Assembly (NCBI GenBank): GCA_037043015.1
Contig: CM073326.1
Location: forward strand, 9,246,345-9,310,344
Source of the DNA: Bryum argenteum
Taxonomy: Eukaryota > Streptophyta > Bryopsida > Bryales > Bryaceae
Direction: 5' to 3'
Length of the DNA stretch: 64,000 nucleotides
The notes under the pieces were generated by a model. That model did not search any database. It was not told the origin of the DNA and was given only the letters and a program-made list of their open reading frames with translations. Positions 21,336 through 60,565 of the stretch are shown here, in pieces (the stretch's first letter is position 1; each line of letters begins with the position of its first letter). The translations under genes and the position numbers were made by a program.

Positions 21336-21797
21336 ATGGTTAGTACCAAGGTGACCACAGTGATTGTCAACGCCTCTAAGCACGGACTCACCATGAAGGT
21401 GGGGAGCCGGAATTGCTACGCCAAGCTGACCAGCTTCAAGCATGGCTCCGAGTATCGGTTGAAGCTCGATGTCAACTGGACGTATCAGGAGTTTCTTGTG
21501 CTAGACAAGTGCAACTCAGCCAATCGGTTGTATCTCAGTTCAGATGACTGCTGCGACTGCGAGCGCATCACCATCGAGGAAAACTCCGACGGCAAGCTCG
21601 CCATGCACACTCTCTTGCGAAGGCAGTTCCGCATCAAGGAGCCTTGCAGCGCCATCGTGGAGGAGGACAAGGAACCTAATCAGGATAGCCATCAAAAGGA
21701 TAGCGTGGCGAATGATAGCCAGCAGAAGGCAGGAAGTGTGATGAGCAGCTGCAAGGCGTGGGTGTGCAGATTCTGTAGTACTTATTTCCTAGCTTAG
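21336..21797 (+). CDS. Tandem Cys-rich small protein family, copy 1
   Basis: A single exon encodes 153 aa. The family core runs over residues 1-112: VSTKVTTVIVNA, then MKVG..NCYAKLTSFK, EYRLKLDVNWTYQEFLV, SSDDCCDCERITIEE and KLAMHTLLRRQF. An acidic, polar linker of variable length follows (EEDKEPNQDSHQKDS). The end is CKAWVCRFC plus a short hydrophobic tail (STYFLA). I see no signal peptide or membrane segment, and the alternation of polar and hydrophobic residues suggests a beta-rich core. From memory the family resembles Pfam DUF7748, known mainly in non-seed plants; this is unverified. The conserved Cys residues (CCDC, C.....C..C) could bind metal or form disulfides, but no function is known. 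Copy 3 is nearly identical, and both have the same copia remnant downstream. Confidence 0.8.
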   Translation: MVSTKVTTVIVNASKHGLTMKVGSRNCYAKLTSFKHGSEYRLKLDVNWTYQEFLVLDKCNSANRLYLSSDDCCDCERITIEENSDGKLAMHTLLRRQFRIKEPCSAIVEEDKEPNQDSHQKDSVANDSQQKAGSVMSSCKAWVCRFCSTYFLA

Positions 21798-23049
21798 AGA
21801 TGGATCCAATTTGAGTTCAGGAGATCACGTTGTATAGAATATTTATGCAGCACAGCGGTCAATGTTGACAATTGTCATCCATCCTGCTATGCTGCATCCA
21901 CCCTTCCTCATCATTAGTCGCGATGTTCAATCACAGAAATAGTGCATGCTTCGTGATTCACGGATCTCAGATCTAAGTCACAAATCAGCGTATGAATGGT
22001 TCGTATAAATGTTACTGTGTCAAATGACGCACTTTGTAAATCTTATAAAGTTAGCTTTTGGAAGCTTTCTCATGTAATAATAATAAAGGTTTTGTGTTTT
22101 ACAAACACTCGTTTGTGCTAATAGGGTATGAATGCTACTATGGGACAACCACATGGTTTGTTGTACCAAGAGTTTTTAGTTCGATCAAATCTAGTGAGTT
22201 GGAAGCTTTGCTTGTTCTATAAAGGAGTTCTAGAATCGCTTAGCATACCCAAGCAAGATGGATTCTTTGCCAAGAGAAATCCCAGAGACCATGAAGTTAG
22301 AGGCTCTTGAAAACTACTTGTTATGGAGTCATAGAGTAATGGGGTTATGTTATTTCAATGAAATATCTTAATGTGTACAAATCAAAAGCATGGAATGTAG
22401 TTAATAATACGAAGTGGCCCCATGGCCTTGTTTTTCCTTCTTCAAATGAGCTCCAAGGGCTTTACACATGGGGGAATTGGCACACACTTTATTAATTGTT
22501 TAATGTGTTCTTGAGGTGGCCCATGGAGCCAATTGGGCTTAGAATGTGGATGAATTGGCTTAGAAATTTGTTGGCCTTCACCTCCCATGTAAAGTGTCCC
22601 TCAGTAACTTGTTTGGAAACATCCATCTCATTTCATCCTTGTCTACACTCTATGTACAATAGAAAAGGACGTTACCGACTTAATATGAAATAGCCCGACA
22701 AATATTTATATAGGGTGGCCTTGCTTAACGATGGTATTGACTGCCGCCAATGCCCCCTGCTTCGGCGCTCGGCTCCTCACAACGTTCGCAATTCAACGGT
22801 CATCAGCGGGGCCGATGCCAGCATTTCTACGCACACGCAGTCTGCGCGGAGAACCAAGACCATCTAGTCGGTTGCAGGCAAAAGTTTCTGATACATATCG
22901 ATCACACTTCTAGGGTGACCATCTCCATTCAACCGTTACGTTGATTCCCACTTCAGTTTGTCAAAGCTTGCCTACTCTTCCATTGCGACATATTTTTTTG
23001 TGGGGGCTTTGATTGTCGATTCCACGAAGCAGTTGTCGATAGATCCATT
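21798..23049. other. Intergenic: copia remnant, then promoter of copy 2
   Basis: A Ty1/copia remnant occupies about 22040-22340. From 22606 the sequence is the start of the large inverted duplication. TATTTATATAGGGTGG at about 22702 is the likely TATA region of copy 2; the same sequence lies upstream of copy 5 on the other strand near 40360. Confidence 0.5.
22040..22340 (+). mobile_element. Ty1/copia LTR-end and gag-start remnant
   Basis: The sequence ending TTTGTGCTAATA followed by a decayed primer-site region is a diverged copy of 26050-26360, where TGGTATCAG is intact. The part at 22288-22340 reads as a start of copia Gag (TMKLEALENYLLWSHRVMG). It is truncated after about 300 bases. Its presence behind both copies 1 and 3 shows it was there before that duplication. 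Confidence 0.55.
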
Positions 23050-23484
23050 ATGTTGGACACCAGAGTGACCACTGTGATTGTCAACGCCACACAGCAGGCC
23101 CTTACGATGAAAGTAGGTGGCCGGCACTGCTATGCCAAGCTCACCAGCTTCAAAGTTGGCGACGAGTATCGCTTGAAGCTCGATGTCAACTGGACGTACC
23201 AGGAGTTTCTTGTGCAGGACAAGAGCGACGCCGCTAACAGGCTGTTCCTCAGCTCCGATGACTGCTGTGACTGTGAGCGCATTACTATCGAGGAAAAGCT
23301 CGTCGGCAAGCTTGCCATACATACTCTATTGCGAAGCCAGTTCCGCAGTCAGGTGCCTTGTAGCGCCATTTTGGAGGAAGACAAGGAATCAGCTGAGGAG
23401 AGCCAGCGGAAGCAAGTAAGTATGATCGTGAGCAACTGCAAGGCTTGGGTTTGCAGATTCTGTAGAACTCACTTCCTAGCGTAG
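23050..23484 (+). CDS. Tandem Cys-rich small protein family, copy 2
   Basis: A single exon encodes 144 aa, starting MLDTRVTTVIVNATQQALTM. It has all family landmarks: HCYAKLTSFKVG, NWTYQEFLVQDK, SSDDCCDCERITIEEK and CKAWVCRFCRTHFLA. The linker is short (EEDKESAEESQRKQ). It differs from its inverted-repeat partner copy 5 by a few residues, for example LVGKL here where copy 5 has PDGKL. The reading frame is intact and the promoter-side TATA region is kept, so it is probably functional. Confidence 0.8.
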   Translation: MLDTRVTTVIVNATQQALTMKVGGRHCYAKLTSFKVGDEYRLKLDVNWTYQEFLVQDKSDAANRLFLSSDDCCDCERITIEEKLVGKLAIHTLLRSQFRSQVPCSAILEEDKESAEESQRKQVSMIVSNCKAWVCRFCRTHFLA

Positions 23485-23575
23485 TGATGGATACTGCCAA
23501 TTGACCCTTACACATTGTGAGGAGAATTGATATATATTGATCGACGTCTGTGAAGTTGTATAGAAAATTGATACC

Positions 23576-23604
23576 CCACTGCGATCTCCATTCTGATCGA
23601 CAGT
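23576..23604 (+). other. Conserved downstream hairpin of copy 2
   Basis: CACTGCGATC, an 8-base loop TCCATTCT, and GATCGACAGTG can form a 10-bp stem with one bulged A. The same hairpin occurs downstream of copies 5, 8, 9 and 12, about 90-130 bases after the stop codon, so it probably lies in the 3' UTR. Confidence 0.6.
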
Positions 23605-25384
23605 GCAGCTGTAATTAGATATCCGGTGAACAACTTTTTAAAGTTCGAAGGCTATGCTTCATTCTTTTGCTGCAATTCTTGATCAGTGTGACTGTGTGAG
23701 ACCTCGAACGAATTCAACACTTCCGTTTCGGAGCTCAACTTCATAGATGGAAACACCCAATTCTGTCTTAACGTACACATGATTCTGATCGTGAATTATA
23801 TCAAGTGAACAGTTCATAATGGTAAAGATGTCATCCACATAGTTGAGCTTCTAAATGGAAGTATTGAAAAGTCCTTTTTGGGTACATTAAGGTGGTGAGC
23901 ACCACATTGACATGGAAAAGGAAATCCACAATCCTGTACAAAACACGACCGTCTCAATGCTTCTCAACCATGAGCCCCAGCCATCAAGCAAAGATTTGTG
24001 GTGTGCATGTAACTCCTTGCACAAACTGTCTTTAGTGTGGTTTGCACAGGTTTGCAATTGCAATCTCTGATCACTAGCAAGAGCTACATAACTTAGAAAC
24101 GGTCAAACTGTTTGGAGTTCTTGTGTCTTTCGTCAATACCTTTAAGAGATCAAAATCTAACCTATGATTGACTGATTTAAATCTTCAAACAGTGGTAGTC
24201 GAACAAAAAGAATGTTGTAGAGAAAATATAAATTGAGAGCTACACCCTTAATAAGAGGTGTTCGATTAGAAATAGGTGAAGCACCTTGTAGAATTATTGA
24301 CAAGAGTTGTTCTTAAGCATAACTTTTGAGATGGATTGGAAGGTCAAGAGATGTACTTAAGCATAATTTTAAGATGGATTGGAAGGTGGCAAAATCAGTA
24401 AGCAATAGCATGGTGGCCTAACACGTTTGGTAAACTACTCTTAAATCTATAAAAAATGAACATTCTTGCATATGGACAGAAATGCGTTGTTGACTTCATT
24501 GATCCTACTTACCATTACTTGTTTAATTGGTACTTAAGACCCATTTTCATGTAGTCCTTGTCAACAAATGATTAAACCGTTGCCTTAAAAACATTCTCGG
24601 CACCAACATGTGGTCAAGGTTGTTTTATAGGACAAAATTCCTACTCATTTACAGTCAGACACAGACTAGATGAGATGTACATCGAAAACATTTTCAATGT
24701 ATCAGATGAACATCTCATCCAAATTGTACACGAGAAATGAATAGGAATTTTGTCCGATAAGAAAACACTGCGTGCGTGTGGCCGACAGTGCGTGCGTGTG
24801 GCCGTTGATGCCGACAACGTGTTGTGATACTCGACCATCGCAAAAAGTCCTATCTCCTTTAGGGCTGACAGCCCCGTCTGCATTTTGTATGCGCCAGCAA
24901 GTTCGAGGAGCAAGTCTGCGCAAGCAACACCATCCATTTTTATGTAGGCAAGTCTTTCTGATTACATATCACACTTCTGCAGTGACGATCTCCATTCACT
25001 CGATCGATACTACTTCGTTCCCCATTTTAGTTCTCAAGCTTGCCTGCTCTTCCATTGCTGCAGACTTTTGGGTTTGCTTTACTCAGCGATCGCTGGACGC
25101 ATTTGTTGGTAGATTCATTTCAAGTTACGCTCTATCCAGCAATTTACTAGCATTCGTGCCTTCAAAGCCTGCAGCCAAATTCGTCTGCCTACTGCATATA
25201 TGTATATACCACCCTTCTGAAACGCCCATCTTCATTCAAGCGGTTCCTGATTTCAATTCTCAAGCTTGCCTGCTCTTGCATTGCTACAAACGTTCGAGCG
25301 CACTTCATTTGGCGATTCCCACACGCAGTTGCCGACGTATCCCATTCAACTACCGCCGTATACCTTCCAGCTCCAGCTACAAGT
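23605..25384. other. Noncoding spacer between copies 2 and 3
   Basis: The sequence to 25137 belongs to the left inverted-duplication arm and contains no gene. A foldback lies at 24625-24760 and a 20-bp tandem repeat of GCGTGCGTGTGGCCG lies near 24770-24805. Between 24880 and 25137 lies a family-type upstream region that in the other arm immediately precedes the ATG of copy 4, but here it is joined to a second leader belonging to copy 3. Confidence 0.55.
24625..24760. mobile_element. 136-bp foldback (MITE-like)
   Basis: The arms 24625-24650 and 24735-24760 are inverted repeats of 26 bases with two mismatches (GGACAAAATTCCTA in both). The matching place in the other duplication arm, near 38285, lacks it. 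This favours an insertion in this arm; no clear target duplication is visible. Confidence 0.6.
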
Positions 25385-25846
25385 ATGGTTAGTACCAAGG
25401 TGACCACAGTGATTGTCAATGCCACTAAGCACGGACTCACCATGAAGGTGGGGAGCCAGAATTGCTACGCCAAGCTGACCAGCTTCAAGCTGGGCTCCGA
25501 GTACCGCTTGAAGCTCGATGTCAACTGGACGTATCAGGAGTTTCTTGTGCTAGACAAGTGCAACTCAGCCAATCGGCTGTATCTCAGTTCAGATGACTGC
25601 TGCGACTGCGAGCGCATCACCATCGAGGAAAATTCTGACGGCAAGCTCGCCATGCACACTCTCTTGCGAAAGCAGTTCCGCATTAAGGAGCCTTGCAGCG
25701 CCATCGTGGAGGAGGACAAGGAACCTAATCAGGATAGCCATCAAAAGGATAGCGTGGCGAATGATAGCCAGCAGAAGGCAGGAAGTGTGATGAGCAGCTG
25801 CAAGGCGTGGGTGTGCAGATTCTGCCGAACTTACTTTCTAACGTAG
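25385..25846 (+). CDS. Tandem Cys-rich small protein family, copy 3
   Basis: A single exon encodes 153 aa and differs from copy 1 at only about seven positions (for example NATKHG for NASKHG, GSQN for GSRN, KLGSE for KHGSE, CRTYFLT for CSTYFLA). All family landmarks are present: NCYAKLTSFK, NWTYQEFLV, SSDDCCDCERI and CKAWVCRFC. The high identity, including the 5' leader and the downstream copia remnant, marks a recent direct duplication of a block of about 1.3 kb. The upstream region is composite, as described for 24880-25384. Confidence 0.8.
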   Translation: MVSTKVTTVIVNATKHGLTMKVGSQNCYAKLTSFKLGSEYRLKLDVNWTYQEFLVLDKCNSANRLYLSSDDCCDCERITIEENSDGKLAMHTLLRKQFRIKEPCSAIVEEDKEPNQDSHQKDSVANDSQQKAGSVMSSCKAWVCRFCRTYFLT

Positions 25847-26049
25847 AGATGGATCGAATTCCAGTTCAGGAGATCACGTTGTATAGAATATTGATGCAGC
25901 ACAGCGGTCAATGTTGACAAGTGTCATCCATCCTACTATGTTGCATCCACCCTTCCCCATCATTAGTGTCTAACAGAAATAGTGCATGCTTCGTGATTCA
26001 CAGATCTCATATATCTAATTCCCAAATTAGCGTATGCATGGTTTGTATA

Positions 26050-27440
26050 AATGTTTCTGTGTCAAGGGACACACTTTGTAACTCCTGTAGATAAGAAAGC
26101 TTCTCAAATATTTCTCATGTGATAATACTAAAGGATTTGTGTTTCACAAACAAGTGTTTGTGCTAATATGGTATCAGCGCATGGGATAATCACATAGTTT
26201 GTTGTACCAGGAGCTCTTAGTTTGATGAGATCTGGTGAGTTGGAAGCTGTGCTTGTTCTATAAGGGAGTTTAGCATACCCAAGCAAGATGGATTCTTCCT
26301 CAAGAGAAATTCTCAAGAGAGACCATGAAGCTAGAAGGTTCTGACATCTACCTTGTTAATATGGAGTTATAGTGTTAGGAACGTTCTTGAAGTGTAGTAG
26401 TATGTGTAGTAAGAAAATTTGTCATCGTCAAGAAACCGAATTGTATGTACGGATGCAAATGACCTTAATACTTTAATAATACAACACCACCACCGAGACA
26501 ACTATTAATGAATTCTCACAATGTGAGGTACTTTGCCACCATTTGAAATCATTACCTCCAATTTGAAAGCAAAGATGTTGATGAGTATTCTACACTTGAT
26601 AGATCCTGGTGATATTTGGGAAGAGTTAATAGTTTTATGTCAATCTAGAGGGATAACTTATAGGCTAGCTCTCAAAGAGCAATAGTATTCCCCTAAATTG
26701 CATGAAGAAAAAGCTGTGACAATTTATCTTTATGATATCGATGCGATCATCACTGAAGCGGCCAAAATCATCACGATCATCTTGGATGAAGACTTGGTTG
26801 AAATACCGCTAAGGGGTTGTCGTGAAGCTGATCCACCTTCAAAGTTAATCCAACGTTTAAAAGAGCAAAACCCAAGTTTTTACAATCTGAAGAGTTTCTT
26901 ACTTCAAGGAGAAAGAACGCCCAAGTACGAGAGCAAGACTGCTCACTCAGATGTCGATTTATATGCTCACGAGGAGCACAATAGCAACTATTGAGGGCGA
27001 GGATGAAGGCGCTGAAACACGTAATTTGTTATAATGATAACATTCACTGATCTTGAGAAATGGGCGTTTAGCTCGAGTCGAGCTAAATTTACCCAGAGAG
27101 TACATTTGACTCAATTTGAGCTCAATTGTCATCGATTTGATAATTTGAATATTCCCATTATAACGAATTACGTGTTCTGAGATCGATGTGGTTGTGGACT
27201 ATCCACCTACGTATAACAACCAAAGACAATCTAATTACACTTATGATCAAACATAGTGGAAATTCACGCTCCCGAGGAAATAATCATAACAATAGTAACA
27301 AAACAACCAACCTCTGGAGGCGAGCACTATTCGAAAATTTACCTAGCTACTTTTGTCTGAGAGATGATAGACATACAATCCTTCCATATGGCTCTGAGGA
27401 TCATGATACCTTACTATTATTGGGTGAACAACAGTTGTAA
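26050..27440 (+). mobile_element. Degenerate Ty1/copia gag remnant, interrupted by a MITE
   Basis: An LTR-like end (TTTGTGTTTCACAAACAAG, then TTTGTGCTAATA) precedes a primer-site-like TGGTATCAGCGC at 26169-26180. Gag-like coding follows in broken frames: at about 26575-26995 it reads ITYRLALKEQ, stop, YSPKLHEEKAVTIYLYDID, and later LLQGERTPKYESK and HSDVDLYAHEEH. A further piece after the MITE (27240-27310) reads SRSRGNNHNNSNKTTN. Stops and frameshifts make it a pseudogene. No LTR pair, protease, integrase or RT was found. Confidence 0.6.
27016..27176. mobile_element. MITE family M, copy 1 (161 bp), TSD CTGA
   Basis: The ends are AACACGTAATTTGTTATAAT and its inverted copy finishing ATTACGTGTT; the arms continue with mismatches for about 30 bases. 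CTGA flanks both sides (27012-27015 and 27177-27180). The second copy, at 43769-43922, is in the opposite orientation with ATTA on both sides. The element has no coding capacity and sits inside the copia gag remnant. Confidence 0.8.
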
Positions 27441-28609
27441 GCACAAAGCTGATATGGTATAAGGATGGAAACTCAAAACTTTATCATCACTACCATGTGC
27501 TCCATTATACTTATATACTTGCATACTCATATTTCAAAAAGGTAAATGACCATTTAAACTATAAAAGATGTAGGAAATAATTATTGTCATATTGTATATT
27601 ATGATTTTATCAAAATTATCCAATGTACAAGATAAGATATGCAAAAGAAAATTCCAAAATTATATGAAGATTATCATTAAAAACTACATGGTGAACTGAA
27701 TAATATGAACAAACATTTCCAAATATCAGCCAATATTTGAGTTGAGGAGTTGAAGTATAGCAAAAAAATCTCGACCGAGCCGATTGAGTATTTCACTTAT
27801 AAGCATGAAGTTTTGGGAAAACCAAGTAGGGTATCTAGGAAGAAGGTTGACCTCCAATTGAGTCAGAAGGTTTTTGAGATACACTCATTGAAAGGGAGTA
27901 TCTGCCTAAGTCACCCAAAACACAACATGGTCATATTTTTCATACTTTGTGTCTTGAAATGACTCAAAACACAACAATGGTGAATTCTTTCCACTACAAT
28001 AGTCATGTTGCATCCTTTGTATGTTACATTTACAATTGACTATTTAACACTAAAATCAAATTCTGATGTTGAATAGTATCACAAGAAGACATGCCCACCT
28101 ATATTGGGACCTCAACTTTGAGCTTCCCTACATCATGCTCTAATAGGACTATTGAAGCGGTTTTCACCTTCTGGCATTCCACAGAAAAGCCACGTTTGAA
28201 TGTAATACAATTTACAGAAGCCAGATTCACTCATATGTAGAATTTTCCTCAAAGTAGGGGTAAACCCAACTTCTTGACTAGAATATTGGGTATTAATAAA
28301 ATGCCAAAAATAGTTCTTAAAGCTTGATCAATTGCTTGACACCAATGTGCGAACCCTACCCTACACATGCACATCGTACTGTATATGGTGTCGGTAGCCA
28401 GCTCGAACCTGTACATGGTGATCATAGGTTCTGAAAGGGAGTCGAGAGAAATTAGCTCATTCGGGCTCCTCGCTTGTTCTTGATTTGGGAAGGGTTTCTT
28501 GATTTTCGGGCGATTTGTCACTGATATGCTATTTGCAGATTTTCAGTGTCACCACGCTGAACAATTTCGTTAACGTCTCGGCGAAATTTGGGGTCGAAGG
28601 GTCTCAACG
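27441..28609. other. Intergenic upstream of DBR1
   Basis: The sequence is AT-rich with no supported gene. The last 150 bases are GC-richer and probably contain the DBR1 promoter and 5' UTR. Confidence 0.45.
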
Positions 28610-37471: not shown

Positions 37472-37954
37472 CTAGGCTAGAAGATAATTTTTACAGAATC
37501 TATACACCCACGCCTTGCTGCTGCTCCCCATACTTTCTGCCTTCTCCTCGCTCCCTTTTTGCTGGCTCTCCTCGGCTGATTCCTCCTCCTCAGCTGGTTC
37601 CTCTTCCTCCTCGGATTCCTTGTCCTCCTCCACAATGTCGCTGCAAGGCTCCTGAATGCGGAACTGTCTTCGCAATAGAGTGTGCATGGCGAGCTTGCCG
37701 TCGGACTTTTCCTCAATAGTAATGCGCTCACAGTCACAGCAGTCATCGGAGCTGAGAAACAGCCGGTTAGCGGCGTCGCTCTTGTCCTGCACCAGATATT
37801 CCTGATACGTCCAGTTGACATCGAGCTTCAAGCGGTACTCGTCGCCAACTTTGAAGCTGGTGAGCTTGCCGTAACAGTGCCCGCAACCTACTTTCATTGT
37901 AAGCGCGTGGTTAGTGGCGTTGACAATCACTGAGGTAACCTTGGTGTCCAACAT
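37472..37954 (-). CDS. Tandem Cys-rich small protein family, copy 4
   Basis: A single exon encodes 160 aa from MLDTKVTSVIVNATNHALTM; an in-frame upstream Met at 38047 is rejected because the paralogs all begin at M(L/I/M)DTK. Landmarks are HCYGKLTSFKVG, NWTYQEYLVQDK, SSDDCCDCERITIEEK and, at the end, SKAWVYRFCKNYLLA. Two of the C-terminal Cys residues are replaced (S for the first, Y for the second). The linker is the longest and most acidic of the family (EEDKESEEEEEPAEEEESAEE in sequence). Confidence 0.78.
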   Translation of the reverse strand: MLDTKVTSVIVNATNHALTMKVGCGHCYGKLTSFKVGDEYRLKLDVNWTYQEYLVQDKSDAANRLFLSSDDCCDCERITIEEKSDGKLAMHTLLRRQFRIQEPCSDIVEEDKESEEEEEPAEEEESAEESQQKGSEEKAESMGSSSKAWVYRFCKNYLLA

Positions 37955-38422
37955 ACCCGTAACTTGAAATGAATCTACTAACATATGCGTCCAGGGATCG
38001 CTGAGTAAAGTAAATCCAAAAGTCTGTAGCAATGGAAGACCAGGCAAGCTTGAGAACTGAAATTAATGGGGATCGAAGTAGTATCGAGTGAATGGAGATC
38101 GTCACTGCAGAAGTGTGATATGTAATCAGAAAGATTTGCCTACATGAAACTGGATGGTGTTGCTTGCGCAGACTTGCTCGTCGAACTTGCTGGTGCATAC
38201 AAAATGCAGACGTTCGCTGTCGGGCCTAAAGGAAAAAGGACTTTTGCGATGGTCGAGCACCACCAGACGTTGTCGGCACCAACGGCCACACGGTCATCTT
38301 AATCATTTGTTGACAAGGACGACTAGATGAAAACGGGTCTTACCAATTAAACAAGCAATGGCAAATAGGATCAACCAAGGCAACAACATATTTCTGACAA
38401 TATGCAAGAATGTTCATTTTAA

Positions 38423-40472: not shown

Positions 40473-42188
40473 AGTAATACTCCCGAATACTATTCTTCAC
40501 CTTTCACCTCTGAAGATGTTTATCATTTATATATAGGTGCAAGAGTAGTACATCAACTTTATATTACGGTGAAGGAGGTGTTTTCTCAATTTCTGTGAGT
40601 TTTCGATGTCTTGAGTCAATCTGTGATTTCGAATCTGTTTGACTACACCTTTTTTATGATTGTAGTTCAATTTTATCTCACAAACAGTATGAAGTCTGAA
40701 ACTTTGTAACACTACAAGTCCATGATTGTCTACAATGCCACACTTCCTACTGAGTGTTTTACCTACTTAGTATTAATACCTTCGTGACAGGGTAAACTTG
40801 CCATATATGATCCTTCATCAGTATTCATAAATGAGGTAAATTTTTCTTATTACTATCAGTTCCAACATGAGGATTTCAAAGAAGTGGCATCTTCTGGGCA
40901 GCCAAAATCATACTTAGGGCAGTTGGGTGTTCTCGTTGGAGTCGTTCTTCTCCGTTGAAAATATTGGAATCAAGAAGTCAATGGATAAAATTTACTCGTG
41001 AGATTGGAGATTTAAGCATTCTGCTTCAATCTGATTTAAGCCCTCACCTCCAACATTCACGGAGAGGTAGGAGCCTTGTCCCTTCCAAGGAGCCTCTTAG
41101 AGTACGTGGACTACGACCCGGTTCACAATCTTCAAATGGTTCAACATTCTCAACCTGTAGACACCACCGTCACTGAGACGGGAGTTCCGATTCCGAGAAC
41201 AACATGTAATAGATCAATCTCGAACCAGGAGCTTGGTCCACTACCATGTGCATGAGTACAAGATGTCGGCGATGCAGAAAATGTAAGGGCTTCTTCTACT
41301 TGATGAGTGAAAGATGCGAGGTCGAGAGAAAGTTCCACAAAAATCCCCTGAGGCAATCCTTGATCCTTGATGGCAGGTTGTAGCCTAACTATAAGTCTAA
41401 CTTCTAAATCATAGAATATTGTAGCTGAGTCCAGAAGTGGTGATTCCACTTGATATAGTCTTTCACATCGCCCATGTAAAGAAATTGTTTACACTGTTAA
41501 CGAGAGATTTCCATATTGAAACGCCATCATTTAGAAGTCCACCTTACAGCCGAAAATACCGTAGCATTATATATGAAGTGGACTACAAGTAGTCAATCCC
41601 CTGTTTTGGGTTCGGGCGGAATCTGCAATCGTCTGCACTAAAAACCCGTCGAGCCGACGAGCGTTCATTGCAGTCACAAACCATCATGAAGGGTACTAAT
41701 CGAGAAATTCCTGGAGGCTTCTCACTGGGAAGTTGTTCCGATTCCAAATATGTTTGATTTCAAGGAGTGACAAACTCATCCAATTGTTTCTTCAGTGGTC
41801 AAACTCATACAAATTTGCGAGTGCCTCATTCAGTGTAGTCATTAAGATAACTGCTTGTGAATCAGGCTTCCTTCCAGATTACAACTATGTTGGAATTAGG
41901 TAAGCATGGAATCAGGTATGGTTGTGAATTTTCCTCTTTTTGGACGACAAGTACCAGATCTGAAAGAGAAGATTGACTTGCAAAATTTGATTATCAATTC
42001 AAACAATTGTTAATGTGCATATTAAAGAATAGACCTAAAGTTACATCATTTACAGCACCGCCGATCCACATGGAGTTAGTAGCGAGGTCTCACTGTTGAT
42101 GCAATTTCACTGCTGAGAGGTATCAATCTTTTCTCCTCCACTTTAACTGTGCTGCTATTTGTATGGCAATGGCTTTGACAGCTCCAGG
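40473..42188. other. Decayed duplicated segment
   Basis: Position 41040-41350 resembles 59075-59340 (GGAGCC.TGTCCCTTCCAAGG and GCTTGGTCCACTACCAT shared), and 41550-41880 resembles 59880-60165, the leader of copy 13. Thus a family copy with its upstream region once lay here and has decayed past recognition. No intact gene remains. Confidence 0.5.
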
Positions 42189-42420
42189 CTAGAAAGTAAG
42201 TTCTACAAAATTTGCACACCCACCCGTGCAGATGCTCAACACATTTCCAACCTTTTGCTGGAATTGCTGGATGTTCTCAGCTGGTTCCTTATCCCCCTCC
42301 AGAATGACGCTGCAAGACTGCGGAACTGCGGAACTGCTGGCGCAGAAGAGTGTGCAGGGCGAGCTTAAGCTTGCAGTCGGGCTTTTCCTCGAAGATGATG
42401 CGCTCGCAATCGCTGGAAGC
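42189..42420 (-). pseudogene. Family pseudogene fragment (3' half)
   Basis: The minus strand reads the second half of the family in broken frames: CERIIFEEKPD, LALHTLLRQQFR, CSVILEGDKEPAEN and then a decayed C terminus. A short duplication around CAGTTCCGCAGTTCCGCAG shifts the frame, and an extra CTTAAG lies before the LALHTLL part. The N-terminal half is missing. It lies directly downstream of copy 7. Confidence 0.65.
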
Positions 42421-42516
42421 CAATGTAAGTGGTCTCGCTTATCTACACATGTTGACGTCTGTGAGGCATCAACTTTCAACACAATCTGATCTCCTGAACT
42501 GGAATTGAATCCATCT

Positions 42517-45077: not shown

Positions 45078-45106
45078 CACTGTCGATCAGAATGGAGCTC
45101 GCAGTG
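45078..45106 (-). other. Conserved downstream hairpin of copy 8
   Basis: The same hairpin as at 23576 with one change in the stem (GAGCTCGCAGTG on the plus strand where others have GAGATCGCAGTG). It lies about 95 bases downstream of the stop codon of copy 8. Confidence 0.55.
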
Positions 45107-45202
45107 GGGTATCAATTTTCTATACAGCTTCACAGGTGTGGGTCATCATGTATCAATTCTCTTCACAATATATGTGTAAGGATTGAATGGCAGTATCCAT
45201 CT

Positions 45203-45670
45203 CTAAGCTAGAAAGTGGGTACTACAGAATCTGCAAACCCAAGCCTTGCAGATGCTCATCATACTTACTGGCTTCTTCTGGCTCTCCTCGCCTGATTCCT
45301 TCTCCTCAGCTGGTTCCACCTCCTCCTCGGATTCCTTGTCCTCCTCCACAATGGCGCTGCACGGCTCCTTAATGCGGAACTGTCTTCGCAATAAGGTGTG
45401 CATGGCGAGCTTGCCGTCGGGCTTTTCTCTAATAGTAATGCGCTCACAGTCACAGCAGTCATCGGAGTTGAGAAACAGCCGGTTAGCGGCGTCGCTCTTG
45501 TCCTGCACCAGATATTCCTGATACGTCCAGTTGACATCGAGCTTCAAGCGATACTCGGAGCCCACTTTGAAGCTGGTGAGCTTGGCGTAACAGTGCCCAC
45601 AACCTACTTTCATTGTAAGCGCCTGGTTAGTGGCGTTGACAATCACTGTGGTAACCTTGGTGTCCAACAT
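45203..45670 (-). CDS. Tandem Cys-rich small protein family, copy 8
   Basis: A single exon encodes 155 aa, starting MLDTKVTTVIVNATNQALTM. Landmarks are GHCYAKLTSFKVG, NWTYQEYLVQDK, NSDDCCDCERITIREK and CKAWVCRFCSTHFLA. The linker is long and acidic (EEDKESEEEVEPAEEKESG). It is closest to copy 12, with which it also shares the upstream region (45.7-46.0 versus 58.4-58.8 kb). A longer in-frame start at 45883 runs through leader sequence and is rejected. Confidence 0.8.
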   Translation of the reverse strand: MLDTKVTTVIVNATNQALTMKVGCGHCYAKLTSFKVGSEYRLKLDVNWTYQEYLVQDKSDAANRLFLNSDDCCDCERITIREKPDGKLAMHTLLRRQFRIKEPCSAIVEEDKESEEEVEPAEEKESGEESQKKPVSMMSICKAWVCRFCSTHFLA

Positions 45671-46811: not shown

Positions 46812-46932
46812 CAGTCCCTTGCACGCCCAGAATCTTGCTGGGACACTCCAGTCCCTTGCACGCCCAGAATCTTGCTGGGACACTCCAGTCCCTTGCACGC
46901 CCAGAATTTTGCTGGGACACTCCAGTCCATTG
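46812..46932. repeat. 37-bp minisatellite followed by poly-C
   Basis: The unit beginning CAGTCCCTTGCACGCCCAGA recurs at 46812, 46849 and 46886, with a partial fourth copy at 46923. A run of about 17 C follows. It ends shortly before the start of the duplicated unit at 46960. Confidence 0.85.
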
Positions 46933-46959
46933 CCCCCCCCCCCCCCCCTCCGGATAATC

Positions 46960-50339: not shown

Positions 50340-51705
50340 CTAAGCTAGAAAGTAAGTTCTACAGAATTTGCACGCCCACGCCCTGCAGATGCTCATCAAA
50401 TTTTCTACCTTCTGCTGGCTCTCCTCAGTTGGTTCCTTCTTCTCCTCCACAATGACACTGCAAGGCTGCTGACTGCGGAACTGATGGAGCAGCAGAGTGT
50501 TGACGGTCAGCTTGCCGGTTTCGGGGTTTTCCTCGATGGTGATGCGCTCACAGTCGCAGCAGTCGTCAGAAATAAGGATTACCTGGTTGGCGGTGTTGCC
50601 CTTGTCTTGCACCAGAAATTCCTGATACGTCCAGTTCACGTCGAGCTTCAACCGATACTCGGAGCCCACTTTGAAGCTGGTCAGCTTGGCGTAGCAGTTT
50701 CGGTTGCCCACTCTCATGACGAGTCCCTGCTTGGTGGCGTTAACCCCTAAAAATCCAGGAAAACCGATTCGGTTTTCTGAGATTTCGGGCAGCTCATTTT
50801 AAGCATATAAATTGATATTTTTGCCTAAGATTTTTATTGGGTGCTCCCCATACAGTAATGTGTATGTGGTAAAATTTTCAAAGTCAAATTTTAATTTTAT
50901 AACCTTCACCTCAAAATTTTAGGTTTCAAGTCCAAAACGGGCAGTTTAAAATAATTTTTTTTATTTAATTTTTTTTTAGAAATATGTTCATTACCAAATT
51001 ACTATTCAAATTCCGAAGTGCCCAAAGTCAAAAAGTTTACCAATTTTACAAGGGCAGCCTCCAAAACTTTCAAAAACAATCTTCACAATTTCTAGTAATT
51101 TTACAATTTTTTCTTTCAAAAATTGCCAAAATTCGAGATTTTGGATTTTTTCCAAGATTTTTTTTTTCAAAATTCACATTATCATAAATGCACCTTCTCA
51201 CCGTCAAGATTTTTCTCAAACTAAATATATCATACGTGGTGCTTGTTTTACTATATGGTTGTTTTTAGACCTTCTTTCATAAAATATTTTACATTAAGGT
51301 CAAAAAGTGGAATCGGTCTCTAAAATTTTTCATGAGCATACCCAACTTGATTACCTACATGAAAAAAAATGAGGGAAAAATATTTGGAATAACAATCATC
51401 AAGTTGCCCTTGGCACCATTTAGACAATGCCTCTCACGCAACGGCAAAAAAAAGTGTTGGTCAAACTTTGATTGTTATGATCTCACAAATGACAAACATC
51501 CAACGGTTGAAATTTTGACCAGTCCTTTGTATACAAGTTAAGTACAAGATCTTACGGTTCAAAGTCTTAAACCGGAAAAAAAAGTTTCTCCATTTCCCCA
51601 TTTCCCAACGAAGGTGAAAAATGGCAGTTTTTGGTTCTGGAGGTCGAGGAAACCCCTGGATTTTTAGGGGTTAACGATCACTGTGGTCACCTTGGTATCA
51701 ATCAT
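50340..51705 (-). pseudogene. Family copy 10, coding sequence split by element D
   Basis: The start codon and first 12 codons lie at 51705-51671 (MIDTKVTTVIVN); the remainder, from ATKQGLVM onward, lies at 50743-50340. Between them sits the 927-bp element D plus a duplicated TTAA. The remainder keeps NCYAKLTSFKVG, NWTYQEFLVQDK, SDDCCDCERITIEENPETG, TVNTLL and CRAWACKFCRTYFLA with no further damage. An internal Met at 50717 could start a protein lacking about 20 N-terminal residues. Unless the element is spliced out, the gene is broken. It groups with copy 11 by the (E/D)TGKLTVNTLL block. Confidence 0.8.
50744..51670. mobile_element. TTAA-site element D, 927 bp, inside family copy 10
   Basis: The ends are CCCCTAAAAATCCAGG at 50744-50759 and the exact inverted copy CCTGGATTTTTAGGGG at 51655-51670, a 16-bp perfect TIR. 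TTAA lies on both sides (50740-50743 and 51671-51674). Every intact paralog runs GTGGCGTT.ACxATCACTG through this place with no insert, so both the insertion and its borders are clear. The interior is AT-rich with no transposase recognised. Confidence 0.9.
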
Positions 51706-52915: not shown

Positions 52916-53341
52916 CTAGACGAGAAAGTAAGTTCTACAAAATTTGAACACCCAAGCCTTGCAGCTTCTCATCACATTTGATGCCATCTCCTCAGGAGGT
53001 TCCTTGTCTTCCTCTAGAATGGTGCTGCAAGGCTCTTGGCTGCGGAACTGATGGCGCAGCAAAGTGTTAACGGTCAGCTTGCCGGTGTCGGGGTTTTCCT
53101 GGATGGTGATGCGCTCACAGTCGCAGCAGTCGTCAGAGTTGAGAAACACTCGGTTGGCGTGGTCGCTCTTGTCCTGCACCAGAAACTCCTGGTACGTCCA
53201 GTTGATATCAAGCTGCATGTGGTACTCGGCGCCCACTTTGACGCTGGTGAGCTTGGCATAGCAGTGCCGATTGCCCGCTTTCATTGTGATCCCTTGCTTG
53301 GTGGCGTTCACGATCACTGTGGTCACCTTGGTATCCATCAT
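52916..53341 (-). CDS. Tandem Cys-rich small protein family, copy 11
   Basis: A single exon encodes 141 aa, starting MMDTKVTTVIVNATKQGITM. It has AGNRHCYAKLTSVKVGAEY, DINWTYQEFLVQDKSDHANR, NSDDCCDCERITIQENPDTG and TVNTLLRHQF. The C terminus is CKAWVFKFCRTYFLV, so one of the conserved Cys residues is Phe. The linker is the shortest of the intact copies (EEDKEPPEEMASN). It forms a subgroup with copy 10. Confidence 0.8.
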   Translation of the reverse strand: MMDTKVTTVIVNATKQGITMKAGNRHCYAKLTSVKVGAEYHMQLDINWTYQEFLVQDKSDHANRVFLNSDDCCDCERITIQENPDTGKLTVNTLLRHQFRSQEPCSTILEEDKEPPEEMASNVMRSCKAWVFKFCRTYFLV

Positions 53342-53819
53342 CGTTGTAGCTTGCAGTAAATCCCCACCAGGTAATTGTGTGCCTGAACCGCGAATCGATT
53401 GAAGCAACCTGGCTCAGTAGGGTTTGAGGCTTGATTGTATGAAATTCGAGAAGAGCAGTAGCGCTGGAATGAGATTTTCACTTCTAAGATTCTGGATGTG
53501 ATTGAGCTACTAGTCTGGTCGATTTATATAACTTCAAGCAGATGACTTGTTTGTGTGGGTAAGCTTGTCGGCAAGGATCGGAGCAGACGCGCGTAACTAC
53601 TGATTTGCCGACTTCACCAAATCGTAGAAACAGGGGTTCTGGATGAATGTCGGACCAAGGGATGTGGCTGAATGTCGGACCAAGGCGGGGATGTGGCTGA
53701 ATGTCGGACCAAAGGATGTGGATGAATGTCGGACCATTAGTCTCGAATGAATGTCGAACCAAGGGTTTTGGATGATCGTTAATTGTTTAACTCCGTCTGT
53801 AACGTCGGAGCCCATCACT
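53342..53819. other. Upstream region of copy 11 with a simple repeat
   Basis: The leader of copy 11 is followed from about 53640 to 53776 by five imperfect repeats of a unit containing GAATGTCGGACCAAGG. Confidence 0.55.
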
Positions 53820-53950
53820 AGCGGCCCCGAACTTTGCAGGGCACGACTCCGAACATTGCAGGGACCGGCCCCGAACTTTGCAGGGACCGGCCCCGAACTT
53901 TGCATGGAGCCGCCCCGAACTTTGCAGGGACCGGCCCCGAACTTTGCAGG
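53820..53950. repeat. About 20-bp minisatellite
   Basis: The unit CGGCCCCGAACTTTGCAGGG recurs about six times with small changes. It sits at the start of duplicated segment S copy 2, where copy 1 has GCGGCCCGGAACCCTGCACG, so a single ancestral unit has expanded here. Confidence 0.8.
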
Positions 53951-54938
53951 GGAACCTGCAAGGCTCCCCACGCTCCTGCTCCTAACACTACATATTGACC
54001 ATAATCATATCATCGACTGCCTCCACAAGCACACTTTACCAAGCTAAGTTCACTGCAGATTGCGTCCATCAGCCATCACTACACTAACTTTCACTTGCAA
54101 CCGGCCTGTGTTGAGAGCTTCAGCTGGCAACCATGGCAGCAATAGCAGCATCGGCTCGAGAGGAGGAACTCGAAGCCAACAGTTCTACTTATCGCCTGTA
54201 ATTTCTTCATTACTACTAGATCACTAGATCAGTTGTATTTCTTGCTAAATATTAGTACGTATTGACTGAGAGTGTTCAGTGACAATCGATCAGTTTGAAC
54301 TGTACTGTACATTTATTCTCTTGAATTTCGGAGAGGATACTGACTTCGGACAAAGTCAGTGAAATTAAAGGTCTGTGAGTTTCGTGGATGACCATGAGAA
54401 TTGTTGTGCGACTGTGATACGGGCCACAACCTTTGATTTCTGATTCTAAATGTAGTGACAGTATCAAGCAAGTCATTACTAGTGCCAAGTCATTACTAGT
54501 GCCTGATCGAGTAAATATTCAATAGATGCGATGTTTTCAGGATCCTACAAGTATTCAACCCCCATAACAACGTTTGAGGAACAACGTTTGAACAACGTTT
54601 GGCATTCTTAAGTACTTTTGAGTACTTGATGAACGAACCCTCATATTTACAACGTTTGTGAGAAACATTGTGTTCCCAGAGGTAGGCTCCTTGTTCCCCA
54701 CGAGAGAACAAGGAGGAGTAAAAGAATTATGACATTCTGGCGGAGTCTGGAAGTCTGATAAATTTCGAGAAGCGTCGATGACTTCGACTTCGACCAGGAC
54801 CTTAACCCTAAGTGTCGAGAAGCCTCGATGACTTCGACTTCGACCAGGAAGTCCCGAGGTTAGGGTTTGGATCTGCTAGAGATCGCTCGCAATTTCATCG
54901 TCCTTTGAATCTGCAGGAGCCTGAGCTTCTGAGAGTCT

Positions 54939-55821
54939 ATGGCGAGCGAATCTGACGGCAGATGCAAGAAGTGGCTGTCGGACATTATCGAGCTTAATTT
55001 CATCACTGGGGCGGATGCGGTCCAAAATATCACACACGAAATTACCGCTGTGGACGAGCATTTGAAAACTCTGGTAAGTACAGCGATTGTAGAGTGAACA
55101 TTTTGCAAGCTTCTTGTACTTAATCGATCTAATTTACAAAGTACGACCTGCATTTAGCCTCTAGAATGGACTTGATTACTTTGGTAGTATCAGAATACTT
55201 GTTTGCGCAATTGTAATGCAATCAGTGGCTGAGGTTTTGTTGTCTTACTCTGCCAAGATTGCAGAGATTCCGAAGCTCATCACCGGCTGCAATGAATTCA
55301 TGGAAGATGCACAGCAGATATTGGAGAAGCGACAGCTTAATCGAACTTTGCTCGCGAATCATAGCTCGCTTTTGGATTTATTGGAGATTCCACAACTCAT
55401 GGACACGTGAGTGAATGTGTGAAGGTTGCAGTGTAGAAAAACACTTCCGAGTTCCTTTAGTTCGGAGATCGTAGAGTGAGATTTCTTCTACGTTCTTCGG
55501 AATTTGGTGATTGGCCTGGTATGTTAGTATTTTAGACTCAAGAGCATTCTTTGATCGTGCAGATGTGTTTGAAATGGAAATTATGACGAAGCTCTTGATC
55601 TTGAAGCGTTTGTCCCAAAATTGGCAACGATGCATTCAAGGTATGTATCGTATCACGTGTGTTACCACATCAGTAACAACGTTTGCGGCGACCTGATTTT
55701 TAAACTCTCGTTTTTTATGAGATGCAGACTTCCTGTTATTCAATCTCTAGAGGCGGATGTAAGGCAGAGAACTCAATCATTGCTTGCTCAAATTCTGCAA
55801 CGCTTGAGATCAAACATTCCG
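54939..55821 (+). pseudogene. COG8: COG8 gene fragment with in-frame stop
   Basis: Four exons keep correct splice sites and phase: 54939-55073, 55258-55406, 55563-55640 and 55728-55821. They encode the N-terminal part of conserved oligomeric Golgi complex subunit 8: FITGADAV, the block LANHSSLLDLLEIPQLMDTC, then [14 protein letters not shown], then [20 protein letters not shown] and LRSNIP. COG8 belongs to the lobe B of the Golgi tethering complex. TGA at 55570-55572 stands where an Arg codon is expected, between TCV and NGNYDE, one C-to-T change from CGA. The conserved exons after LRSNI are absent, and the N-terminal helix region is shortened. It lies within the 2.4-kb insertion, so it is a captured fragment rather than the native gene. 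Confidence 0.85.
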
Positions 55822-56003
55822 GTGAGTTTCATATCAAATCCACGTGTGTAGTGACAGTTTGGCATCAGGTTAAGTGCCATTTGGTGATCTTCTGTTAAGA
55901 GTGCAGGCGCACCTCATAAACGGCTAACTTCGATCATTCTTGTAACTTTGCGTGTAGTTGACATAATGTTAACCCTAAGGAAGCACTGTACGCGTCTCAG
56001 GCA

Positions 56004-56429
56004 ATGCAACGGATTGCAACGGAACGAACTAATGAGCAGTATGGGAAATTTCAGGTGAAGCCAGATGAGAGTGTGCTTCTCGTGGTCTTGCTGTCGGCAG
56101 TCATTTCGATCTCTCTTGTGGACATGCTGGGTAAATGCCCGCCTCAAATGTTCAAACCTGGACGTAGCAAAGTACGACCGAGTGGGACTAAGTGGGGTAT
56201 GGGTCTATCCTTCTTCTATATCATGTTATGCAATTTCGTACAATGTTAATCTGGTGTATATAATCAGCCTGAATATGCAGCTACGTTTCAGACTTGTTTT
56301 GTTGCGTCGTTTCATTTTAAAGTGTTTTGACGACTCACAGCTGCTGTAATCTTCGAGAGACAAGCCAACGAAAAGAGCGACATTGCAAGGAAGTTGGCAC
56401 TATACGACTTGCACTATACGACTCGGTGA
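56004..56429 (+). pseudogene. Second captured fragment: small membrane-protein gene
   Basis: Two exons (56004-56196 and 56341-56429) join in phase 1 to 93 aa. There is one hydrophobic segment (VLLVVLLSAVISISLVDML), then PPQMFKPGRSKVRPSGTKWG and AAVIFERQANEKSDIARKLA, ending LYDLHYTTR. I do not recognise the family. The end of the last exon has a 14-base tandem duplication (GCACTATACGACT twice, 56397-56424), which probably altered the C terminus. It may lack upstream exons, since AG stands just before the first codons. Its position in the insertion beside COG8 suggests capture. Confidence 0.5.
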
Positions 56430-57600
56430 ATTACTAAGTCTATTCAGAGAGTGCGAAGGTTTTGGGAAGCTGATTTGTGCTGGGCACGGCAGAGAAGCAA
56501 AACACTTCAGCTAGTTTAGCTAGTTTAGTGTCACAGGAAGGCCATGTCTATAAATGTAGAAAGCCTATTTTGTTATAATTAGCAGTGGAATCTAGAAAGC
56601 AACGCCACGTGCTATATTGCAGGCTTACTGGCAAGGTCAGAAGAGGATTAGATTATAGATTAGTGCAATATTATCAAAGTATTTGTACCACTGATATATA
56701 CAAGTTTACATATTTACAAATATACAAATTTTCACGTCCACTTTCACCACGAAATTTACAATGGGCCCACAAAACGAAATTTACAATGGGCCCACAAAAT
56801 TGAGTTCCCAAAGAAAATGAGGAAGTTCTCACAATGTTGTTAAAACACCTTCCTAGACGTTGTTCTTCTCCTAGCACTTGCATGGGTGTTGTTTTTACAA
56901 CGCTTGAGAGGCACTCCACTTGCTCTCATCCTTTGTATTTAACAACGTCTGAAGCGTTGTAATAGGGGTGAAATCCCGGAACAATGGGAACGACAACCAT
57001 CGCACAGCCGCCACCACCACCGCAGCCAAATCCTCAACAAGTGAACTTGAACGTACAAGCTCCTGTGGCTGAAGAGGATCTCGTGTCGAGCTGGTTGATG
57101 GATCTCCCCAACATTCGATCGAGAGGCAGTGATATGGCCCAAACTTCAGTAGCTGCGATCCTGACAAGACGATTTGGAAGCTACCATCGCAAATAGAATG
57201 GAAGATGAGTAATATCATGTAGTGGGACAGCATTTGTGTGCTGGACTCATGCTTCTACGGTCGGTATATATATTTGTGTTTTGGTCACTAGGTCCAAGGT
57301 GGGAGATCGCGGTCATAGGATTGGGTTCCGATGACCATGTGAGCTGTGGTGAGTTCCGTGTTTGTCCCGTGGTCACAGGCTCCATGGGCACTCCCGTGGT
57401 CATAGGCTCCACAGATGTTCTGGTCACGCTAGACCTTTCAGGGACCAGCGTTTGCTTTAGTATTTCTGTTTTTGTGATCCAAACTTGTGTGTTGAGGAGA
57501 GGAGGACTTACCATGTCCATAGGAATATTGTACATCAGGTTTTGATGGAATAATATACTACTCGACTAAGGATTTGTGTACGGTACCCTGGTGTATGCAG

Positions 57601-57969
57601 TGGAGTAATTTTGAAATTAGGAATTGTCTAGAGATTGTCTAGAAATTTTGCTTCAGCATACAAATGCAGACATCGGCCCAGCTAGTGACCGTTGAATTGC
57701 GAACGCTGTGTAGAGCCGAGCGCCACTCCGTGTCGAAACAGGAGGGCATTGTCTGTTTGTTCGAGGTCTCACATCAAGAATTGCAGCAAAAGAATGAAGC
57801 ATAGCCTTCGAACTATAAAAAGTTGTTCACCGGATAATTACAGCTGCACTGTCGATCAAAATGGAGATCGCAGTGGGGTATAAATTTTCTATACAACTTC
57901 ACGGATGTGGATCATTATATATCAATTCCCCGTGCATTACGTGTTAGGATCAATTGGCAGTATCCATCT
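57601..57969. other. Rearranged junction and downstream region of copy 12
   Basis: Positions 57650-57750 repeat the upstream region of copy 5, joined to the downstream region of copy 12, as at 48490-48600. The hairpin of copy 12 is at 57847-57875. No gene is supported. Confidence 0.5.
57847..57875 (-). other. Conserved downstream hairpin of copy 12
   Basis: This is the family hairpin with the stem intact and one loop change (CAAAATGG in place of CAGAATGG on the plus strand). It lies about 95 bases after the stop codon. Confidence 0.6.
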
Positions 57970-58437
57970 CTAGACTAGAAAGTGGGTTCTACAAAATCTG
58001 CAAACCCAAGCCTTGCAGATGCTCATCATACTTTCTGGCTTCTGCTGGCTCTCCTCGGCTGATTCCTTCTCCTCAGCTAGTTCCTCCTCCTCCTCGGATT
58101 CCTTGTCCTCCTCCACAATGGCGCTGCACGGCTCCTTAATGCGGAACTGTCTTCGCAATAGAGTGTGCATGGCGAGCTTGCCGTCGGGCTTTTCCTCGAT
58201 AGTAATGCGCTCACAATCACAGCAGTCATCGGAGCTGAGAAACAGCCGGTTAGCGGCGTCGCTCTTGTCCTGCACCAGATATTCCTGATACGTCCAGTTG
58301 ACATCGATCTTCAAACGGTACTCGGAGCCCACTTTGAAGCTGGTGAGCTTGGCGTAACAGTGCCCGCTACCTACTTTCATTGTAAGCGCCTGGTTAGTGG
58401 CGTTGACAATCACTGTGGTAACCTTGGTGTCCAACAT
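57970..58437 (-). CDS. Tandem Cys-rich small protein family, copy 12
   Basis: A single exon encodes 155 aa, starting MLDTKVTTVIVNATNQALTM. It is closest to copy 8; differences include GSGHCYAK for GCGHCYAK, KIDVNW for KLDVNW, SSDDCCDCERITIEEK for the NSDD/REK form, and the linker EEDKESEEEEELAEEKESA. The end is CKAWVCRFCRTHFLV. The frame is intact, and the leader is shared with copy 8. Confidence 0.8.
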   Translation of the reverse strand: MLDTKVTTVIVNATNQALTMKVGSGHCYAKLTSFKVGSEYRLKIDVNWTYQEYLVQDKSDAANRLFLSSDDCCDCERITIEEKPDGKLAMHTLLRRQFRIKEPCSAIVEEDKESEEEEELAEEKESAEESQQKPESMMSICKAWVCRFCRTHFLV

Positions 58438-59344
58438 ACTTGAAGCTTGATACTTAACGACAACTGCGTCCAGGAAACGACAATTAAAGCGCTCACAGAA
58501 GTATGTAGCAATGGAAGAGCAGGCAAGCTTTGACAACTGAAGTGGTGATCGATCGAAGGAGCGGTCGGATGAAGAGATGGTCACACCAGAAGTGTGTTAC
58601 AAGCTTATATCAGAAACATCTGCCTGCACAAACTGCATACAAAATGCAGACTTCGGTAACGGCCTAACGGGTGGGCGGAAATCTACGATTATTGGTATAG
58701 ACTACAGGCGAAACAGGGCAGTCGGCATCACCGCCATCACCAGTTACCAAGTCCACCCTGTATACCGTATACCCTTGTGGGGTCAATCTATATTTGGCAG
58801 TCAATGGCCTACTCTATTACCGTATGACAGGGATGAAATGAAAATTGGTAGAATCGTCCAAACAAGCACATAGGATCAATGATCACAACTTAGTAATTTT
58901 AATTTTCCCCACCACTGAAATTGTTCATCATTTATGATTGCGAAAGTAGTTCTGTAGCTTTTGGATGTGACCTGTCAGGGTGGTATATAAGTAGTTCTGT
59001 AGCTTTTGGATGTAGTTACTTTTCTAATATGCTTCAATTTGCAATGAGACATCCAAATTTTTGATTTCAGAATATTCACGGGAGGCAGGAGCCCTGTCCC
59101 TTCCAAGGAGCCTCTTGAAGTACGTGCACTGCGACCCAGTTTACAATTTTCAAATAGTACTCACTCAAAGTCTGCCACTTCCGAAAACCACATGTATGTA
59201 CATGACCAATATCGAATCAGAAGCTTGGTCCACTACCATATGCATGACTACAACGGTAATGCAAGAAGGATTCTTGAAGCTCCTTCCATTGGTAAGCGCG
59301 AGGCCCAGAGTAAGTTCCAGACAAGCCCTTGATCACTTTTCCTG
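58438..59344. other. Upstream region of copy 12 and decayed duplicate
   Basis: The promoter side of copy 12 matches that of copy 8. Positions 59075-59340 match 41040-41350 and are of unknown origin. No gene is supported. Confidence 0.45.
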
Positions 59345-59580
59345 ACTTCGTCTCCTCTTCCTCCGAATTAGCCACTGCTGAATTGCTTGCGCACCGCCAG
59401 CTTGCCCTCGACGCCCTTTCCGACGATGGATTACCGATGCGCTCTAAGTCGCCACAGTCTTAGGGGTCAAGGAACAGTCGGTTGCTGGGGTTGCTCTTGT
59501 TGAAGTCCTCGGGTACACGGCGTCCACTTTGAAGCTGGTCAGCTTGGTGCAGCAGTGCCCCTTTCATGAGCCCCTATCAG
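59345..59580 (-). pseudogene. Decayed family copy, minus strand
   Basis: On the minus strand the order of family blocks is still visible: a GGGC.CTGCTGCACCAAGCTGA piece matching CYAKL, ACCAGCTTCAAAGTGGACG, then CCAGCAACCGACTGTTCCT (NRLFL), GACTGTGGCGACTTAGAGCG (weak match to DCCDCER), and GGCAAGCTGGCGGTGCGCAA. The frame is lost and several pieces are deleted. It lies back to back with copy 13. Confidence 0.6.
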
Positions 59581-60175
59581 TGTCCACTTGGAGCATGAAA
59601 GAGATCCTTTGACAAACTTATGACGTACGAAAAGTGGAGTACTGCAAACTACCTCTGCACTGAGGCTTCCTCGACCTTGCATGAAATTCGACAGCGACAT
59701 TCGACTCTTGTTTGAATTGGTCGCTTTAAGAAGCCGACAACGTGCCAGAGAAGATTCACGGAGAGGAAACGCGTGAGCGATGCCTGGATGAGCAATAGGA
59801 ATGCCCCCACAGGGCTGAAACAGAGTGTATAGATCCGGTATTCCAGCAGCAGCACGGCAATAGGACGTACAGCCGAAAATGTTGCAATATTATATATGAA
59901 GTGGACTCAGTCAATCCTCTGTTTCGAGATCTGCGGTATCTACAATCGTCTGCACTACTTACCCATCGGGCCGACGAGCGTTGTCTGCAGTTACGATTCC
60001 TCCTGCGAGCTTCTCACTGGCAAGAAGTTCCGGCAAGTAGTTCCGACAAATACATTTCGAGAAACTCAATCAAGTGTTCCTCAGTGGTCATATTCATACA
60101 AATTTGCGGGTGCCTCCTTTGGTGAAGTCATTGAAAAGACAGCTTTCGGAAGAGGCTTCCTTTGAAGCTACAAGT

Positions 60176-60565
60176 ATGATGGATACCAAGGTCACCACAG
60201 AGATCGTCAAAGCCTCTAAGCACGGGCTCATCATGCAACCCTGCACTGCTATGCCAAGCTCACCAACTTCAAAGTGGGCGACGAGTACCGCATGCAGCAT
60301 GATGTAAACTGGACGTATGCAGGACAAGTGCAACCGACTCTTAATCAGTTCCGACGACTGCTGCCACTGCGAGCGCATCATCGTCGGCAAGCTGGCCCTG
60401 CACACTCTAATGCGCCACCAATTCCGCACTCAGGAGCCTTGCAGCTCCATTTTGGAAAAGAAAAAGGAACCTGTCAATGACGATAGCCCGCAGATGGCAG
60501 GAGATGTGATGAGCAGCTGCAGGGCGTGGGTGTTCAGATTCTGTGGAACTTACTTCATAGTTTAG
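60176..60565 (+). pseudogene. Tandem family copy 13, frameshifted
   Basis: The start MMDTKVTTEIVKASKHGLIM is intact, then small deletions shift the frame: the GNxH codons before CYAKL are damaged, a deletion removes much of NWTYQEFLVxDK, and part of the ERI..EE region is missing. The last third is again readable (60317-60565: LISSDDCCHCERIIVG, TLMRHQFRTQEPCSSILEKK, CRAWVFRFCGTYFIV). The DCCDC motif reads DCCHC. It is therefore a decayed copy. The leader matches the remnant at 41550-41880. Confidence 0.75.

Follow-up and report, generated by a model that had tools for sequence, protein, structure and literature searches.

Why does the genome of the moss Bryum argenteum carry, crowded into some 40 kb, so many versions of one small cysteine-rich protein gene, and what might the protein do? 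The array in question lies in a 64,000-nucleotide stretch of the 258.8-Mb genome (G000:C6:9246345-9310344; GenBank contig CM073326.1), here called the window. An initial annotation, made from the letters alone, had counted about 14 copies or remnants, at least 10 of them intact or nearly so, and had pointed to a resemblance to the Pfam family DUF7748. Both statements proved right. Positions 21336-60565 of the window hold 14 family loci, namely 11 main copies and three remnants (Table 1); 10 of the main copies are ATG-to-stop frames, and the remaining one (c50) is without a start, its first in-frame Met lying ∼10 codons downstream of the lost one. All 11 main copies matched Pfam PF24928 (DUF7748) at E <= 0.001, and none of them matched any other Pfam family. 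The six copies that were scored individually reached 97-112 bits (E 6e-28 to 1e-32; curated cut-off, 25 bits), each match spanning positions 1-90 or 1-91 of the 92-position profile. In a profile search of the genome contigs, all 11 were again above the PF24928 cut-off, the start-less c50 covering positions 6-87. With c42 as the query, the other array copies scored down to E 4e-71, far beyond chance.

The array copies are under constraint, and no positive selection was detected in them. The one-ratio maximum likelihood estimate of omega, the ratio of nonsynonymous to synonymous substitution rates (dN/dS), was 0.222 for 11 copies and 147 codons (147 of 164 codon columns were retained after removing those gapped in more than half of the copies), and the M0 likelihood (−2292.56) equaled the IQ-TREE value. 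Under model M1a, 78% of the sites were at omega 0.12 and the rest at 1; for the same 11 copies and 147 codons, M2a did not improve on M1a (2ΔlnL ∼0), and no site class above 1 was found. When the ratio of nonsynonymous to synonymous differences (pN/pS) was pooled over 12 copies, it amounted to 0.31 overall; the domain and the C-terminal tail were at 0.25 each, and the acidic linker between them at 0.61. The array is kept by purifying selection, which constrains domain and tail equally and leaves the linker looser. The copy at 69475, to the right of the window, was absent from the likelihood and conversion tests; the start-less c50 was in both selection sets.

Local duplications, repeated and in both orientations, gave rise to the array. 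Its five longest gene-bearing duplicate pairs share 1.25-2.1 kb, flanks included. At least one pair looks homogenized by gene conversion: between c52 and copy 69475, the gene is 99.8% identical, with zero synonymous differences, the aligned flanks are 92.5% identical, and the tract that stands out is ∼0.9 kb long. In the pairs c23/c39, c45/c57, and c21/c25, the genes are 95-96% and the flanks 86-89% identical, a difference that selection alone could produce. The pair of c48 and the broken copy at 66821 displays the reverse pattern (gene 84%, flank 91%). With 191 variable sites, a fragment test exceeded all 400 of 400 permutations, mainly via c42 with c21 and with c25, whose longest runs were 30 and 29, respectively, versus a permutation mean of 11 (uncorrected for 55 pairs). 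Copy c50 and the truncated copy at 68056-68268 are closely similar and carry complementary truncations (5′ end and 3′ half missing, respectively), as after an unequal exchange.

Beyond this locus, at least 81 PF24928 stretches were found on contigs C2-C11, 74 of them without an internal stop; the count is a lower bound, and three genes are apparently divided over two rows. From 66 matched frames, 21 were excluded as partial, which left 45; of these, 44 entered the tree (locus L009 was excluded and one kinase, described below, was cut to 90 residues) together with 12 array copies. In the midpoint-rooted tree of these 56 sequences, all 12 array copies formed a single clade (ultrafast bootstrap 93), and the expansion is thus specific to the locus, as the initial annotation had proposed. 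The seven members of a second array, at 12.3 Mb of C10, also formed one clade (ultrafast bootstrap 94), as did, with support 100, the three members each of the small clusters on C8 and at 10 Mb of C6. The members at 19.4 Mb of C3 formed no clade of their own (four of them fell inside a group of seven), and the array and the C10 array did not group to the exclusion of other sequences (19 in 21, support 60). Local expansion of DUF7748 genes occurred more than once. All 39 aligned family members matched PF24928 and no second Pfam family (E <= 0.001); their majority consensus reads N.T...L..K.GN ... D.N.TYQEY ... SSDDCCD...I.I.E.DG.L. In searches for relatives outside the genome, PF24928 gave no match in any of 14 control genomes, and none of 19 pattern matches in viral contigs and 53 in genome contigs was confirmed, no other plant genome having been among those searched. 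Within the literature library searched, no paper named DUF7748 or PF24928, and a narrow search on tandem genes in Physcomitrium gave no match. Two further arrangements of the domain were seen. On C3, the DUF7748 genes L015:6628-7056 and L016:1359-1787 are separated by ∼8 kb and oppositely oriented, and their C-terminal sequences are identical and their profile scores equal; on C5, the minus-strand frame L055:5377-6366 encodes 330 amino acids with three DUF7748 stretches and the C terminus LKGWSLW.

The Pfam entry assigns no function. It describes the same domain as that of the array copies, in which the layout is domain (residues 6-95), acidic linker, and tail; linker and Cys/Trp tail are what the array adds. 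Tails were compared in 56 family proteins, comprising 43 of the 45 frames (the L009 duplicate and the kinase were excluded), one restored L036 protein, and 12 array copies. Their last 22 residues contained 6.2% Trp, 7.4% Phe, 16.7% Lys plus Arg, and 4.2% Asp plus Glu, compared with 0.6%, 0.6%, 10.2%, and 18.1%, respectively, in the region from residue 100 to the tail. Trp was present in 45 of the 56 tails; three ended in a CaaX-type motif (CIIL, CHIL, and CSIM) and one in CC. The tails of the array (KAWVCRFC; mostly SCKAWVCRFC-like) resemble those of the C10 array (KAWLCNFL and KTWLQQFL). Because the tails are Trp-rich, aromatic, and basic and include CaaX-type ends, a membrane-tethered intracellular protein is suggested, and the fact that the tail is as constrained as the domain favors the putative membrane attachment. 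All frames were read without introns, and some C termini may therefore be wrong.

A second lead comes from C9 (locus L058), where a single open frame of 787 codons encodes DUF7748 (E 2.5e-15), a middle region of ∼250 residues, and a protein kinase. DUF7748 is what this protein and the array proteins have in common, whereas middle region and kinase occur only in the former. This frame and the tail composition described above are new here. The middle region matched no Pfam family and looks helical, by eye only. An MLKL-like identity was considered for it; no Pfam model matched, and the search of the PDB gave E 0.7 and worse. A paralogue on C7 contains an internal stop and a similar but degraded N terminus, which did not match PF24928 and scored 8.2 bits with the family profile versus 8.0 for the best of 1000 shuffles. 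DUF7748 is lacking from the frame of a C4 kinase whose middle region is related. The open frame L062:1261-3480 on C4 (∼23.307 Mb) combines a region like the C9 middle region, a protein kinase, and a partial class I chitinase (GH19) domain. A study of kinase-containing and integrated-domain nucleotide-binding leucine-rich repeat receptors (NLRs) of non-flowering plants (PMC11218826) offers a likeness only in the general idea that mosses combine kinases with accessory domains. No NB-ARC or leucine-rich repeat match was found in the DUF7748 frames scanned, and the comparison with NLRs is a loose analogy, not membership.

Taken together, we tentatively favor, at somewhat less than an even chance, the explanation that the array encodes adaptor or sensor proteins of the peripheral-membrane type, amplified for dosage, whose domain also occurs in a kinase. 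The protein would consist of an intracellular, beta-rich domain of ∼90 residues, an acidic flexible linker, and a short C-terminal tail that attaches to membranes, in the array via Trp and Phe plus cysteines open to S-acylation, elsewhere via aromatic-basic tails and, in a few cases, CaaX-type ends. In signaling, the domain might have the role of a peripheral-membrane adaptor or sensor module; one family member has it as the N-terminal part of a protein kinase. The array would provide gene dosage and slight variants for a single biochemical task rather than a recognition repertoire. Several observations weigh against this explanation. Eleven of the 56 tails lack Trp, only three have a CaaX-type end, and the 56 proteins are related rather than independent. 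The hydrophobic moment of the tail was not clearly higher than that of shuffled tails (p < 0.1 in 16 of 56; median p 0.24), and an amphipathic helix is for this reason not demonstrated. The kinase fusion amounts to one clear case (C9) and one marginal case (C7). Structure prediction, built both times from the 11 rows of window copies alone, yielded no reliable fold, either for the whole protein (predicted local distance difference test, pLDDT, 37) or for the domain alone (pLDDT 51, modeled as strands and one short helix); among solved structures, neither fold nor sequence search gave a match above noise, and the profile of the 39 family members reached E 1.1 at best. The fold matches were mixed and at noise level (HGSNAT residues 78-186, the extracellular domain of PepT1, transthyretin, Ig domains, and cytolysin domains), as was one to actinoporin (E 0.82); the domain is predicted to be mostly beta, and nothing further is drawn from them.

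Low dN/dS and homogenization would also fit selection for dosage in a stress or developmental family (e.g., desiccation, reproductive tissue) that expanded for the amount of a soluble product, and the conserved blocks upstream of the genes would fit shared regulation. Such a family leaves the constrained aromatic-cysteine tail and the CaaX-type ends unaccounted for, and we regard it as possible but on the unlikely side. The initial annotation had inclined toward defense or recognition. In a diversifying family of this kind, the copies would diverge so as to bind, or to block, pathogen molecules that themselves change. A birth-and-death array with short variable patches is what such a family would look like, intact copies do stand beside remnants, and the domain occurs on a kinase, too. 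However, the diversification that was part of this proposal was not borne out: because the site test shows no positive selection, the idea of diversifying recognition is unsupported; domain and tail are conserved while variation is strongest in the acidic linker, and there are signs of homogenization. With 11 sequences, the power of the test is limited, and conversion confounds it. We consider diversifying recognition unlikely; a defense role as such is neither established nor contradicted.

The eight recurrent cysteine positions of the array, six of them in all 11 copies, might alternatively be read as ligands of a metal, bound by domain (CC.C) and tail cysteines together. The majority consensus of the wider family keeps only the CC of SSDDCC, and C10 tails hold at most one cysteine, which makes metal binding a very improbable reading. 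That the array is made of a mobile-element protein or of dying repeats is hardly credible, despite the fact that Copia-type frames (62068-63576) adjoin it and that some copies are remnants: dN/dS is 0.22, the closest pairs were duplicated together with their flanks over 1.2-2.1 kb, and DUF7748 is the only Pfam family in the 11 copies. The two outcomes that the initial annotation had named as speaking against it, a known transposon protein and dN/dS near 1, were hence not what was found. A bolder form of the adaptor or sensor explanation would make DUF7748 an unrecognized membrane-tethered intracellular signaling domain of plants, the array copies decoys, competitors, or partners of the DUF7748-kinase, and the two a paired system kept uniform by gene conversion; this we deem improbable. 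In any case, a nameless Pfam domain is now linked, in one plant genome, to a large family of genes that duplicate locally, with two handles on its function: a tail that is under constraint and may bind membranes, and the fusion with a kinase, a hint of signaling. If both links were true, DUF7748 would be a new land-plant signaling module.

Motif conservation within the array was somewhat narrower than the initial annotation had stated. In the alignment, DDCCDCERI was indeed common to all 11 main copies; NWTYQEF was exact in seven of 11 (NWTYQ[ED][FY] in 11 of 11), and CKAWVCRFC was found in eight of 11. The absence of introns was confirmed for the coding frame, and no signal peptide was seen in the array proteins, as judged by eye only. 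Upstream of ten aligned copies, short common blocks are separated by frame-breaking gaps (by eye), and coding therefore seems to begin at the conserved ATG. A longer in-frame reading of c45 (226 amino acids, extending upstream to 45883) contains an extension that, again by eye, seems not to be conserved. The three main copies at 21-26 kb are encoded by the plus strand, the eight at 37-58 kb by the minus strand, with exostosin GT47 frames in between, and the array extends ∼6 kb beyond the right end of the window, where three further copies were found (Table 1).

Table 1. Members of the DUF7748 array, in window coordinates (aa, amino acids).
Feature	Position	Strand	Remark
c21, intact, 153 aa	21336..21797	+
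c23, intact, 144 aa	23050..23484	+	DNA identity to c39 95%
c25, intact, 153 aa	25385..25846	+	DNA identity to c21 96%
c37, intact, 160 aa counted from conserved Met	37472..37954	-	second in-frame ATG at 37984
c39, intact, 144 aa	39589..40023	-
Remnant, only 3′ part, internal stops	42187..42414	-
c42, intact, 148 aa	42517..42963	-	long identical runs in common with c21 and c25
c45, intact, 155 aa counted from conserved Met	45203..45670	-
c48, intact, 147 aa	48803..49246	-
c50, without 5′ end, initial ten codons replaced	50340..50744	-	no ATG there
c52, intact, 141 aa	52916..53341	-	99.8% DNA identity to copy 69475-69900 outside window
c57, intact, 155 aa	57970..58437	-
Remnant in two short pieces	59436..59560	-
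Remnant, broken frame, one internal stop	60176..60565	+
Broken copy, internal stop	66821-67249		beyond window
Truncated copy	68056-68268		beyond window, in L009
Intact copy	69475-69900		beyond window; one amino acid off c52

At the right window edge, the Copia-type retrotransposon frames occupy 61718-63576; the scanned frame encodes gag, integrase, and related domains. On either side of this stretch lies one copy of a direct repeat of 252 bases (61345-61596; 66353-66604, in L009). The two copies are 99% identical and are possibly the long terminal repeats of one recent insertion. In keeping with a land plant, the window contains, besides the GT47 frames, a MADS-box gene and Rfam matches to snoZ101 (10463-10548) and snoR80 (10920-11047, barely over threshold), which we take to be plant small nucleolar RNA families.

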